The translations under genes and the position numbers were made by a program. Shown one piece after another: positions 2,765-20,834 of a stretch of 32,637 bases of DNA. A model generated the notes under the pieces. That model saw only the letters and a list, made by a program, of their open reading frames with translations, was not told the origin of the DNA and did not search any database. The first letter of the stretch is position 1; the number at the start of each line of letters is the position of its first letter. Source of the DNA: Chloroflexota bacterium (lineage in GTDB: Bacteria > Chloroflexota > Anaerolineae > Promineifilales > Promineifilaceae); NCBI GenBank assembly GCA_020631655.1, contig JAHDGV010000014.1:1774-34410 (forward strand), written 5' to 3'.

Positions 2765-3310
2765 ATGCCTGAAAAAAAATCTAGCGGCTCCGTTTGGGAG
2801 CCTGACGGCAGGCAAATTGAAGAACTGGATCGATATTTGGCAGGTTTTGCTGAGGTAACTGGCGCATCGTTCACCATTTTAATTCGAGCAAACGGAGATG
2901 TTTTGTGCTCGGATGGACAGTTTCCAAGAAAAGATAATGTGATGATCAGTGCCCTTGCGGCCGCTGGTTATTCTTCTAGCGAAGAGCTAAGCCAATCATT
3001 GGCGTTCTCGGATGATGAGGAAACCAATTGCTCACAGCAGTTTGTGCTAGAAGGGATCGAAAACAATATTTTCATTTCAAAACTAATAGACGATATTTTG
3101 CTGGTTTCCGTTTTTTCGGCCGAGGTGACTGTGGGCATGATGCTGGTCCATTCAGAAAAGTTAGGCGCACAAGTAGTTGATTTAGCGGCCGAACAAAAAG
3201 TGATAGAGGTAGAGAGGGAAGGGAGAAAGGTGTTCCAGTTTGATGAAGAATTTGGTCTTCAGGTGGATATGCAGCTTGATAGTTTGTTTTTAGACAATAA
3301 GGATTCCTAG
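2765..3310 (+). CDS. mglB: MglB-like roadblock/LC7 domain protein
   Basis: 181 residues. Residues 17-140 show the roadblock fold pattern: an N-terminal helix (IEELDRYLAGFAEVTGA), strand FTILIRANGDVLCSDG, a long helix with SALAAAGYSSSEELSQ, and strands NIFISKL and ILLVSVF. This is the domain of MglB, which stimulates GTP hydrolysis by MglA. A C-terminal extension of about 40 residues (ending VDMQLDSLFLDN) is charged and probably helical. It resembles the tail of the receiver-roadblock protein upstream (IEQELDKLF), suggesting a shared docking element. The gene sits 30 bp after the GTPase and 7 bp before the next gene, so co-transcription is likely. GAP activity is inferred from the family and context. 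Confidence 0.72.
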   Translation: MPEKKSSGSVWEPDGRQIEELDRYLAGFAEVTGASFTILIRANGDVLCSDGQFPRKDNVMISALAAAGYSSSEELSQSLAFSDDEETNCSQQFVLEGIENNIFISKLIDDILLVSVFSAEVTVGMMLVHSEKLGAQVVDLAAEQKVIEVEREGRKVFQFDEEFGLQVDMQLDSLFLDNKDS

Positions 3311-3317
3311 GTTAAAT

Positions 3318-4124
3318 ATGAAAACCGAAATCGAAGGAAATCTAGAGGCAATGGATTTACCCACTCTCATCCAATTTGTTGGACAAGAGGGTGATGCTGC
3401 ATCTGTCAATATCGAAGGTGAGAACGGAACCGGCTCAATTTATTTGAACGAAGGGTATCTGTGTCACGCTGTGGTGCTGGATTCTGAAAATCACAGAATA
3501 GAGGGTGAGGACGCTTTATTCGAGCTACTTAGATGGGAAAAAGGACATTTTAAACTCCTAAAGAAAGTTGAAGTTCCGATCGCGACAATTCAAAAGCCGT
3601 GGGATTTCGTTCTGATGGAAGGTCTTCGCAAGTTAGACGAAGAACAAGCAGGCAACCTTGATGAAAATGCTGAGGAAGGCAAGGTGGGAAATTCATCAAA
3701 TAGAGAGTTCGAGTTATTCGACGAAACGTCAGGCTCAATTCCACAAAATAAGGAACTTAATAAAATGGCTAATTTAGAAGAAACACTAAGTGAAATTATG
3801 AAAATTGGTGGCGCAAAAGCGGCCGCCCTTGTTGATTGGGAAAGCGGTCTGACGCTAGGCACAATCGGCAGTGGTATGGATATCGATTTGGCAGCGGCCG
3901 GGAACACCAACGTGGTCCGTGCAAAGTTTGAAGTGATGAAACAGCTCAAGATTGACGGTGGTATCGAAGATATCTTGATCACACTGACCGATCAATATCA
4001 CATGATTCGCATCATGGAAAGCAACGTTAATTTATTTATCTACGTTGCACTTGACCGTAGTTCATCAAACTTGGGTATGGCACGTCATCAACTATCAAAA
4101 CTTGAGAGCGAATTAGAAATTTAG
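3318..4124 (+). CDS. DUF4388 / roadblock domain fusion protein
   Basis: 268 residues. Residues 1-112 are a DUF4388 (PatA N-terminal-like) domain: GNLEAMDLPTLIQFVGQ, then the GSIYLNEGYLCHAVVLD strand pair, then EDALFELLRWEKGHFKL. An acidic linker (112-148) leads to a second roadblock-like domain (150-268) beginning MANLEETLSEIMKIGGAKAA and containing VRAKFEVMKQL and LFIYVALDRSSSNLG. DUF4388 is common in gliding and predatory bacteria, often fused to signalling domains. As third roadblock protein of the cassette it probably forms dimers on or near the MglA-like GTPase. The start ATG has only AGG five nt upstream. A better RBS lies inside the gene before codon 150 (see separate entry). Confidence 0.7.
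   Translation: MKTEIEGNLEAMDLPTLIQFVGQEGDAASVNIEGENGTGSIYLNEGYLCHAVVLDSENHRIEGEDALFELLRWEKGHFKLLKKVEVPIATIQKPWDFVLMEGLRKLDEEQAGNLDENAEEGKVGNSSNREFELFDETSGSIPQNKELNKMANLEETLSEIMKIGGAKAAALVDWESGLTLGTIGSGMDIDLAAAGNTNVVRAKFEVMKQLKIDGGIEDILITLTDQYHMIRIMESNVNLFIYVALDRSSSNLGMARHQLSKLESELEI
3749..3767 (+). promoter_or_regulatory. Strong internal RBS and in-frame ATG (possible second start)
   Basis: TAAGGA (3749-3754) lies nine to ten nt before an in-frame ATG (3765), exactly at the border between the DUF4388 part and the roadblock part. Initiation here would give a free roadblock protein of 119 residues. The spacing is better than at the annotated start. Confidence 0.4.
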
Positions 4125-9585: not shown

Positions 9586-10392
9586 TTATTCGCTGTTAGT
9601 TTCGCTAGGCTTATCAGCGCTGTCTGAGTTTATGCTGGGTAGAACAGCCTGAATCAGATCGATGGGGATTGGGAAAATCGTTGTGGTGTTTTGTTCAACT
9701 CCAATTTCCGTGAGTGTCTGCAAATACCGTAGTGTCATTGCTCCAGATTCTGTTGAAAGCGCCCGAGCCGCTTCTGAGAGCATTTGAGAGGCCTGCAACT
9801 CACCTTCAGCGTGAATGATTTTTGCACGTCGTTCTCTTTCTGCCTCTGCTTGACGTGCCATTGCCCGCACCATTTGGGGGTTAAGCTCTACATCTTTAAC
9901 TTCTACGATGGTTACTTTGATTCCCCATGGTTCTGTGGCCTCATCAATGATGTGCTGTAGCTTGCCATTGAGTTCTTCTCGATCAGAAAGCAAGGCATCT
10001 AATGTGGACTGCCCAATGACGTTGCGCAAACTGGTTTGTGAAATTTGGGACGTTGCCCGACGGAAATTCTCGATGTTAATAACGGCCGAAACCGGGTCTG
10101 TTACCTGGAAATAGACAACTGCGTTTACCCGTACCGTTACATTGTCAGACGTAATCGCTTCTTGAGTTGGGACATCTAGCGTGATTGTGCGCAGGTCAAC
10201 TTTCATCATTTTATCGATGACGGGAATCACAAAAAAGATTCCCGGCCCCTTGGCTCCCAGCACACGTCCTAGCCGGAAAATCACCCCTCTTTCATATTCT
10301 TGAACGATCCGAACACCGGCCGCAATTAAGGCGATAATAAATAAACCACCCACACAAACTAGGGATCCACCCATAGACAAAAATTCACTCAT
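9586..10392 (-). CDS. SPFH/Band 7 domain protein, slipin (stomatin-like)
   Basis: 268 residues, the usual slipin length. A hydrophobic hairpin segment (8-27, GGSLVCVGGLFIIALIAAGV) is followed by the Band 7 domain: VQEYERGVIFRLGRV, GPGIFFVIPVID, VDLRTITLDVP and VRVNAVVYFQV. A charged helix AEAERERRAKIIHAEGE then leads to the FPIPIDLIQ tail. Such proteins oligomerise on the membrane inner face and organise microdomains or control a membrane protease. The usual NfeD partner gene is not adjacent. The reading frame stays open to 10617, but that extension would be antisense to a tRNA. ATG 10392 has GGAGG seven nt upstream, a textbook RBS, so it is the start. Confidence 0.92.
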   Translation of the reverse strand: MSEFLSMGGSLVCVGGLFIIALIAAGVRIVQEYERGVIFRLGRVLGAKGPGIFFVIPVIDKMMKVDLRTITLDVPTQEAITSDNVTVRVNAVVYFQVTDPVSAVINIENFRRATSQISQTSLRNVIGQSTLDALLSDREELNGKLQHIIDEATEPWGIKVTIVEVKDVELNPQMVRAMARQAEAERERRAKIIHAEGELQASQMLSEAARALSTESGAMTLRYLQTLTEIGVEQNTTTIFPIPIDLIQAVLPSINSDSADKPSETNSE

Positions 10393-10498
10393 CCAAAGCC
10401 TCCAGATATTTCTAATCCTAAAAACAAGTAATTTAAACAGGTTATACCAGCTAACATAAAAATCCGCTTGTGATTTTAAAATGGCAAGGTTAAATCTC

Positions 10499-10527
10499 TT
10501 GATCCAACCCATCAGATGTGGCAGAAT
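10499..10527 (+). promoter_or_regulatory. Candidate promoter of tRNA-Arg
   Basis: TTGATC (10499-10504), 17-bp spacer, CAGAAT (10522-10527), twelve bp upstream of the tRNA 5' end. The -10 is weak; position and spacing are right. Confidence 0.4.
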
Positions 10528-10538
10528 ACATGACCTTG

Positions 10539-10610
10539 GTTCCCATAGCTCAGAGGATAGAGCGTTGGTCTCCGAAGCCGAAGGCCCAGGTTCGAGTCCT
10601 GGTGGGAACA
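10539..10610 (+). tRNA. tRNA-Arg (anticodon CCG)
   Basis: 72 nt forming a full cloverleaf: acceptor GTTCCCA/TGGGAAC, D stem GCTC/GAGC, anticodon stem TTGGT/GCCGA (two G-U pairs) with loop CTCCGAA, four-base variable loop, T arm CCAGG-TTCGAGT-CCTGG, discriminator A. The anticodon CCG (10572-10574) reads CGG arginine codons. CCA is not encoded. A rho-independent terminator follows directly. Confidence 0.96.
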
Positions 10611-10618
10611 CAGGCAAG

Positions 10619-19313: not shown

Positions 19314-20582
19314 TTAGTCTACGATTTTTAGAAGATGATATCCCTTCTTACCTTTTCGCAGAATAATAAACTTGCCTTCAATCGCATCTGAACGGCTGAG
19401 GGTTTGGTCAACGCCAGATGATTTGATGTTGTTGACATAGATGCCACCACCGTCGATTGAGCGGCGTGCATCTTTCTTGCCTGATGCAACACCGCTTTCA
19501 GCTAGTACATCTACAATTGATTTGCCGCCGTCCATTTCGTGACCTTGGATATCCGTTGATGGAACCTCAGAAAAAATGTCACTAATTTCGGCCGCACCCA
19601 ACCCATCAATTGAGCCACCAAAGAGGACGGCCGTTGCTTTTTCAGCATTGCCTAAAGCGGTGTCACCATGGACAAGTTTGGTCACCTCTTGAGCCAGTCG
19701 CTTGTGTGCTTCCCGTCGATGGGGAGCTTCTGCGTGGGCTGATTCAAGTTCCGCAATTGCTTCTTGATCCAGAAACGTAAACTTTTTGAGGTACGAAATC
19801 ACTTCTCTATCATCGGTGTTGATCCAGAACTGGTAGAAGCGGTACGGTGATGTTTTGTTCGGATCAAGCCAGACCGAACCGCTGGCCGTTTTGCCAAATT
19901 TGGTCCCATCGGCCTTAGTGACCAGCGGGTACACAAGTGCATGTGCTTTACCACCTTCACGGCGGATCAGATCAGTTCCGGCCGTGATGTTGCCCCACTG
20001 ATCACTGCCTCCAGCTTGAAGCACACAGTTGTGCTCTCTGTAGAGGTGCAAGAAGTCGTACGACTGAAGCAACATGTAGCTGAATTCGGTGTATGAGATG
20101 CCACCATCCATGCGCCCTTTAACCGAGTCTTTTTGAAGCATGGCATTTACACTGAACTGCTTGCCGATGTCGCGCAAAAAGTCGATCAAATTGAGCTTTT
20201 CGAGCCAGTCTGCGTTGTTTACCAGTTTGGCTGGGTTTGATTTAATCTCGAAATCTAAAAGCATTGCTAGCTGACCGCGAATTTTTTCGAGATTGTGGTG
20301 CAGTTGATCACGTGAAAGCAGGTTGCGTTCTGCACTACGGCCGCTGGGGTCGCCGATCATTCCTGTGCCGCCACCGGCTAGAGCAATGGGGGTATGCCCG
20401 TATCGCTGGAAACGAGCCAGCGAGAGCATGGGAACCAAGCTTCCAACATGCAGAGAGTCGGCCGTTGGGTCAAAGCCGATGTAGAGCGAGATCTTTTCAT
20501 TTTTCACGAGTTCTGGAACATGTTCCGTGTGATCAAAAACGAGGTCTCGCCACTGTAATTCTTCTAAAATTGAGTTTGTCAT
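19314..20582 (-). CDS. tyrS: Tyrosyl-tRNA synthetase
   Basis: 422 residues, the standard TyrRS length. Class I signature HVGS (45-48) within [17 protein letters not shown], tyrosine-pocket motifs YMLLQSYDF and [12 protein letters not shown] (189-200), and the KMSKS-equivalent KFGKT (228-232). A C-terminal S4 RNA-binding domain follows (about 350-415; [14 protein letters not shown]). It charges tRNA-Tyr. There is no Shine-Dalgarno in front of the ATG. Transcription appears to start about 217 nt upstream at a strong promoter and must pass an intrinsic terminator inside a structured leader (separate entries), so expression is probably attenuated. Gene is followed by a very strong terminator, so it is monocistronic. 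Confidence 0.97.
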
Positions 20583-20650: not shown

Positions 20651-20799
20651 TTGAGGCATAAAAAAAGCGCGGTGTGCGCCGCGCTTTGAGTTCAACTGAT
20701 TTTGGGCATGCCTCAATAACCGGCCATGCCACCAATACTCTGGCGACCTGTCGTTGAATTCGAATAGTAATAATAAACGGCATGCATGAACTTATTCAT
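20651..20799 (-). promoter_or_regulatory. Structured tyrS leader RNA with attenuator (unidentified riboregulator)
   Basis: From a predicted TSS near 20799 the minus-strand RNA begins with hairpin CATGAA/TTCATG (20800-20785). A closing stem pairs GAATTCAAC (20761-20753) with GTTGAACTC (20696-20688), 8 of 9 bp. It encloses two hairpins, GCCA/TGGC (20744-20728) and GGCATG/CATGCC (20730-20705). The closing stem abuts the terminator directly. After the U-tract, ATGCCTCAA (20659-20651) can pair with TTGAGGCAT (20716-20708) in read-through RNA. No T-box core (TGGNACC) with tyrosine-fitting sequence was found. It could be a riboswitch, an odd T-box, or an independent small RNA of about 140 nt. Confidence 0.55.
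20660..20687 (-). terminator. Intrinsic terminator inside the tyrS leader
   Basis: On the minus strand AAAGCGCGG and CCGCGCTTT form a perfect 9-bp GC-rich stem, followed by seven T. It lies upstream of tyrS and downstream of its promoter, and no other minus-strand gene ends here. Confidence 0.88.
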
Positions 20800-20805
20800 G
20801 CTGGC

Positions 20806-20834
20806 ATAATATCAGGCGGAACTAGACCAGTCAA
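20806..20834 (-). promoter_or_regulatory. Strong sigma70-type promoter for the tyrS leader
   Basis: Minus strand TTGACT (20834-20829), exactly 17 bp, TATTAT (20811-20806). It sits just upstream of aat on the opposite strand and overlaps the extended aat reading frame, which argues for the later aat start. Confidence 0.75.

Follow-up and report, generated by a model that had tools for sequence, protein, structure and literature searches.

The closest described systems to the locus reported here are the pheST attenuator of gamma-proteobacteria and the trpS and leuS attenuators of Streptomyces, which like the tyrS leader below combine a peptide rich in the cognate residue with an antiterminator/terminator ahead of an aminoacyl-tRNA synthetase gene (PMC1262725). 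In Actinobacteria no tyrosine attenuator was found, and elsewhere the RNA control of tyrosine genes is by T-boxes (PMC1262725). According to a 2010 study leader-peptide attenuators were known only in Proteobacteria and Actinobacteria before its own Firmicutes case (PMC2965389), and in a 2013 survey the Rfam attenuators listed were only those for His, Leu, Thr and Trp, with Ile/Val and Phe given in addition (PMC3766115). Two Dehalococcoides have been reported to carry T-boxes related to ileS, trpE and a trpB-like gene (PMC2494555). Within the open literature, which is what our search covered, we came across no Tyr, Ala or Lys attenuator of this type, nor any leader-peptide attenuator in Chloroflexi.

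The element studied here precedes tyrS (tyrosine--tRNA ligase; positions 19314-20582, minus strand; TIGR00234 at 401 bits with a cut-off of 114) in a 32,637-nucleotide stretch of Chloroflexota DNA, which as a whole we call the window. It had been described in an initial annotation as a structured RNA with a promoter, hairpins and a terminator. These parts are indeed present but an open reading frame running through the element had been overlooked. This ORF (20713-20799, minus strand, stop TGA at 20715-20713) encodes a leader peptide of 28 residues, MNKFMHAVYYYYSNSTTGRQSIGGMAGY, that includes four consecutive Tyr codons (TAT TAT TAC TAT, YYYY; 20764-20775, minus strand), and it is followed by a transcription terminator and then by tyrS. 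The comparative sequence analysis described below makes it very probable that the element is a classical (trp/phe-type) ribosome-mediated transcription attenuator. Close kin of the same ORF stand before tyrS in two congeners, G002 (MNKFMHAVYYYYSISTMRHQSIGGMAGY) and G004 (MKHFMHAFYYYYLNLATHHRTVGGMAGY), and TAT and TAC are swapped at the Tyr codons of the three leaders as they are interchanged among relatives more widely. The 5' hairpin of the initial annotation corresponds to an inverted repeat, GCATGAA/TTCATGC, found around 20801-20784 (minus strand), which is the start region of the leader ORF. At Corynebacterium glutamicum ilvBNC, where the start codon is 1 nt from the 5' end of the transcript, a 5' hairpin covering it was proposed to block initiation (PMC11857589); by analogy such a block may or may not apply to the tyrS leader. 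The divergent neighbour of the element is aat (leucyl/phenylalanyl-tRNA--protein transferase, TIGR00667; 20854-21507, plus strand), and sequence resembling the aat neighbourhood is also found ahead of the G004 leader.

The promoter was located where the initial annotation had placed it, with a -35 box TTGACT (20829-20834) and a -10 box TATTAT (20806-20811) on the minus strand separated by a spacer of 17 nt, the -10 box being extended by a TGA ahead of it. The leader ATG at 20799 lies 6 nt downstream of the -10 box. Transcription typically starts about 7 nt past a -10 box, a position that in the window is the A of the leader ATG (20799, minus strand), our predicted transcription start. The same geometry was seen in 37 family leaders, where 32 have A as the 7th nucleotide past the -10 box and 30 have C as the 6th, and where the distance from -10 box to start codon is 6 nt (n=20), 9 nt (n=15) or 7 nt (n=2), so that the start codon falls at the predicted +1 or a few nucleotides downstream. 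Given the usual start about 7 nt past the -10 box, the transcript should open with AUG or a few nucleotides earlier, and the leader mRNA is probably leaderless. This strong-promoter layout has no Shine-Dalgarno sequence, and the start of the ribosome is deduced from promoter geometry.

The comparison of tyrS upstream regions in relatives that had been proposed for this element showed a conserved layout, in the form of an ORF followed by a terminator/antiterminator. The gene was found in 46 of 52 family genomes, 45 of which gave a usable upstream region. In 37 of these 45 we found TTGAC-(16-18)-TAnnnT, a start codon, an ORF of 17-30 codons rich in Tyr, and then a terminator, with TTGAC at the position of the window -35 box and, in 34 of the 37, a promoter spacer of exactly 17 nt. 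An intrinsic terminator, mostly of the AAGACGCGGC...CCGCGTCTTTTTT type, stands between leader ORF and tyrS in all 37. Locus L146 has the leader ORF with a promoter outside the search pattern, and no leader was found at seven of the 45 tyrS loci (L119, L121 with 331 nt upstream only, L130, L141 and L156-L158). When leaders were defined by geometry and picked without any residue selection, Tyr was their commonest residue (126 of 960, 13.1%; p 7e-31 against 4%), encoded by TAT 99 times and by TAC 27 times. The triplet YYY occurs in 26 of the 45 sense upstream regions and in no antisense one, shuffled sets giving a mean of 0.36 and a maximum of 3. Sequence between the Tyr run and the terminator varies, while the ORF, the Tyr run and the pairing geometry are retained. 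Among the nearest named tyrS genes there was no convincing relative of the leader. These named genes include ones from Anaerolineales (L032) and Anaerolineae (L035, L070), which suggests an origin of the window in the Anaerolineae of the Chloroflexota, although hits of similar identity come from MAGs with other labels.

The terminator announced ahead of tyrS, with its 9-bp stem and U7, is present: the stem AAAGCGCGG/CCGCGCTTT begins at 20687 and with the U tract extends to 20660 (20660-20687, minus strand; stem -14.0 kcal/mol). Directly abutting it is the closing stem of the initial annotation, which we read as a protector (anti-antiterminator) stem. Its 5' strand GAATTCAAC (20753-20761) forms 8 of 9 possible pairs with its 3' strand GTTGAACTC (20688-20696), both on the minus strand, and the 5' strand lies directly past the Tyr codons within the footprint of a ribosome stalled there. 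This stem holds in the window but the two nearest congeners lack it, their best pairing reaching only -4 to -6 kcal/mol; a protector-type stem is supported in other genera and weak in the closest congeners. Lack of conservation among relatives, which had been named as evidence against the element, applies to the closing stem in these two congeners and not to the layout as a whole, which is retained. An inner-strand segment, TTGAGGCAT (20717-20709, minus strand), is complementary to ATGCCTCAA directly past the U tract as had been noticed; we dropped this pairing as a mechanism because congeners keep it only in part and because TGCCT follows unrelated terminators. In the window TGCCT lies past the U tract at 20661-20657, and the same letters stand past unrelated terminators of a congener (L240, L267), perhaps a terminator habit of the whole lineage. 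Further downstream, between the attenuator terminator and tyrS, there is an 11-bp perfect inverted repeat CGAAAGAGTAA/TTACTCTTTCG (20642-20611) that is absent from the congeners; G004 has another hairpin there.

An alternative pairing was found that is mutually exclusive with the terminator. Region 2, the 5' strand of the putative antiterminator (GGCCGGTTATTGAGG; 20711-20725, minus strand), includes the leader stop codon and pairs with region 3 (20691-20677, minus strand), which overlaps the 5' arm of the terminator. In the window alone the duplex of -15.4 kcal/mol is borderline against shuffles (p 0.053), and its equivalent in G002 reaches -16.2 kcal/mol with none of 300 shuffles as good. Over the 37 family loci region 2 and the terminator 5' arm pair with -15.2 kcal/mol compared with -11.4 kcal/mol for shuffled leaders (p 1e-10). 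Region 2 also prefers the arm of its own genome to those of other genomes (p 0.009; 0.021 in 24 non-redundant loci), and the protector stem, whose strands lie just past the Tyr codons and near the leader stop, similarly favours its own partner (p 0.0016; 0.015 non-redundant). The two strands have changed and yet stayed complementary at several loci, as in GCCTCCGTTGTGA with TCACGACGCGAGGC (L124), TCACCGCG with CGCGGTGA (L128) and GCCGCC with GGCGGC (L117). For most genera, region 2 is a GCCGC-like segment whose first nucleotide lies 13-18 nt past the last Tyr codon, just outside a stalled ribosome; in the genus of the window it sits at the leader stop codon. When the part covered by a stalled ribosome was masked, the mean number of antiterminator pairs rose from 4.8 to 8.7 with a gain at 35 of the 37 loci, the null being 4.2. 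An antiterminator favoured by a ribosome on the regulatory codons is thus found family-wide and is borderline in the window taken by itself. Full-length equilibrium folding with a stalled ribosome still favoured the terminator (0.96 in the window, 0.90 on average) and switched clearly (0.09) only in G002. Since the terminator dominates at equilibrium, the switch would have to be kinetic and depend on co-transcriptional timing as in classical attenuators. A further feature counts against an attenuator: the ORF has another Tyr codon directly before its stop, and a ribosome halted on it would cover region 2.

In Firmicutes tyrS is controlled by T-boxes (PMC2494555), and a T-box of classic or minimal type, in which uncharged tRNA-Tyr would bind the leader RNA and stabilise an antiterminator, was an obvious candidate. 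The tyrosyl T-box of Bacillus subtilis tyrS shares with our locus the gene, the input (tRNA-Tyr charging) and the output (terminator or read-through); it differs in that the RNA itself senses and translation is unneeded, and at the window tyrS a T-box was undetected. The Rfam run suggested in the initial annotation gave no family at threshold at the locus: at gathering score the only match in the window is one tRNA elsewhere, and RF00230 is missing at the locus both at gathering score and among matches with E up to 10. Weak matches to STnc130, FopS and Xoo1 at the locus were regarded as chance: all score far under the cut-off and fall on the other strand. The upstream regions of the relatives' tyrS genes likewise contain no T-box at gathering score, their sole match being a SAM riboswitch elsewhere in L116 (RF00162, 70.5 bits, 3268-3392), near tyrS of the congener G001. 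As a positive control, the same model found T-boxes in 51 of 51 family genomes, five of them in the window's own genome, where one lies about 170 nt upstream of trpE (G000:C147:34637-34926). T-boxes are so plentiful in these genomes that their absence at tyrS is meaningful, and a T-box would have no need of what is conserved here, an ORF whose Tyr codons vary synonymously. We consider T-box control of this tyrS extremely unlikely even in a lineage so rich in these elements; T-boxes and predicted leader-peptide attenuators coexist in the genome of the window. The window's tRNA gene (10539-10610, plus strand) is overlapped by the start of a minus-strand ORF (9586-10617), so the true start of that ORF is probably internal.

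Leaders of the same design were found at other amino acid genes. Ahead of pheST in the same family the layout recurs with Phe in 28 of 30 loci (e.g. MNGKRFFGFFFMRPTRAVFVQERGSA); these leaders are 19.5% Phe (p 6e-55), and their pairing segment starts 12-15 nt past the last Phe in most, with own partners surpassing shuffled ones (p 4e-8). Of 30 trpE upstream regions none has an attenuator leader, and in several genomes T-boxes are found there. Scans with a promoter-leader pattern over 13 and 21 genomes gave 24 and 146 matches including those that overlap, compared with 2 and 10 for reversed-pattern controls. Mixed Phe/Tyr leaders (e.g. MSKMTAFFSFYFYFF...) stand before chorismate mutase aroH and/or DAHP synthase at 15 loci, Ala leaders (e.g. 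MKQTCVIFAAAAAQTNSLDMSAA) were found five times with alaS downstream in four, and the Lys leaders MSTNLSITNTLKKAKKQNGDQSVIW, MLTASAFVKKAKKQNRPVTAVW and MKSFETQNFVKKNKKRFPI precede lysX or homocitrate synthase of the LysW pathway. Gene identities were assigned by NCBIfam for one representative each and for the rest by eye from similar sequence. The loci are L248-L262 (aroH/aroF), L236, L237 and L264-L266 (alaS), L230, L263 and L267 (lysine genes) and L163-L191 (pheST). All share the promoter-to-ATG spacing and the terminator with the tyrS leaders. In a scan of 400 genomes of the phylum a Tyr-triplet pattern matched 24, some of them by chance; in distant families in-frame Tyr-rich leaders stand before aroH or aroF (L273-L275, L280-L285, L288, L290) and, in two very large genomes, before tyrS (L293, L294). 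The residue of the leader changes with the gene (Phe, Ala, Lys), which points to the codons as the sensor; no other single observation argues for this as strongly as the agreement between codon and gene.

The sister loci also bear on the two remaining proposals of the initial annotation. A riboswitch or aptamer of a new class, with tyrosine or some other ligand, would account for a locus that has no Rfam match and for a 153-nt RNA whose compact fold beats its shuffled counterparts (-46.8 compared with -38.5 kcal/mol; z -2.3; matched by 3 of 200 shuffles). It is at odds with the variation among relatives between Tyr run and terminator, which leaves no conserved aptamer-like core, and with the exchange of residue along with gene at the sister loci; the apparent sensor is a translated-looking leader ORF whose Tyr run is codon-conserved in relatives, and we give a ligand-binding aptamer hardly any credence. 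The second proposal, a small RNA sharing the promoter, can be widened to a stand-alone small RNA or leader peptide acting in trans with tyrS expressed from another promoter. A strong promoter could make the terminated product, about 140 nt long, abundant, and action in trans is documented for the trpL leader peptide of Sinorhizobium meliloti (PMC7298713), whereas the conserved place before tyrS, the match of codons to gene and the antiterminator pairing all imply control in cis, which action in trans could at most supplement. As a full explanation it seems to us very improbable. What the evidence supports of the original proposals is cis riboregulation of tyrS, terminator-based and governed by tyrosine supply.

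For the preferred reading, ribosome-mediated attenuation, we infer the start site, translation, stalling and read-through response of the tyrS leader as follows. Transcription would begin at or beside the A of the leader AUG, where translation would initiate without a Shine-Dalgarno sequence. With ample charged tRNA-Tyr the ribosome would cross the four Tyr codons and reach the end of the ORF, region 2 would be held off by the protector stem, by the ribosome now at the stop codon or by both, and the terminator would form with the transcript ending near 20660. With charged tRNA-Tyr scarce the ribosome would stall on the Tyr codons and mask the sequence right behind them. Region 2, left free, could then pair with the 5' arm of the terminator once this is made, and the polymerase would continue into tyrS.

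The sister leaders lead us to favour, with some reserve, a wider reading in which leaderless leader-peptide attenuators would form an ancient regulon of the phylum and cover at least five specificities (Tyr/tyrS, Phe/pheST, Phe+Tyr/aroH-aroF, Ala/alaS and Lys/LysW-pathway genes), the amino acids being divided with T-boxes. If true, this would add ribosome-mediated attenuators for Tyr, Ala and Lys to those already known. A conserved Tyr attenuator and its sisters beside T-boxes would suggest that amino acids are split between two tRNA-charging sensors within one genome. It would also yield an annotation rule for short ORFs that gene finders may miss, namely a promoter, an ATG 6-9 nt on, a codon run and a terminator.

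Compared with the pheST, trpS and leuS attenuators, the present element concerns tyrosine and tyrS, belongs to another phylum, has no match to an Rfam leader family, and has a leader that lacks a Shine-Dalgarno sequence and opens at the predicted transcription start. In this last respect it resembles the ilvBNC leader of C. glutamicum, whose near-leaderless ORF begins 1 nt from the transcription start (PMC11857589), and the mycobacterial polycysteine leaderless ORFs, which in the account of Canestrari 2020 cited in PMC13236596 start at the transcription start as predicted for the tyrS leader. Both, as far as these accounts describe them, differ from the tyrS leader in residues and genes and belong to Actinobacteria. 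In the Actinobacteria literature that we searched no multi-gene set with one fixed promoter-to-ATG geometry is reported. The mechanism proposed here is thus an already known one; judged from sequence comparison, its Tyr/tyrS specificity, its lineage and its use in a multi-gene and probably leaderless set appear to be new.
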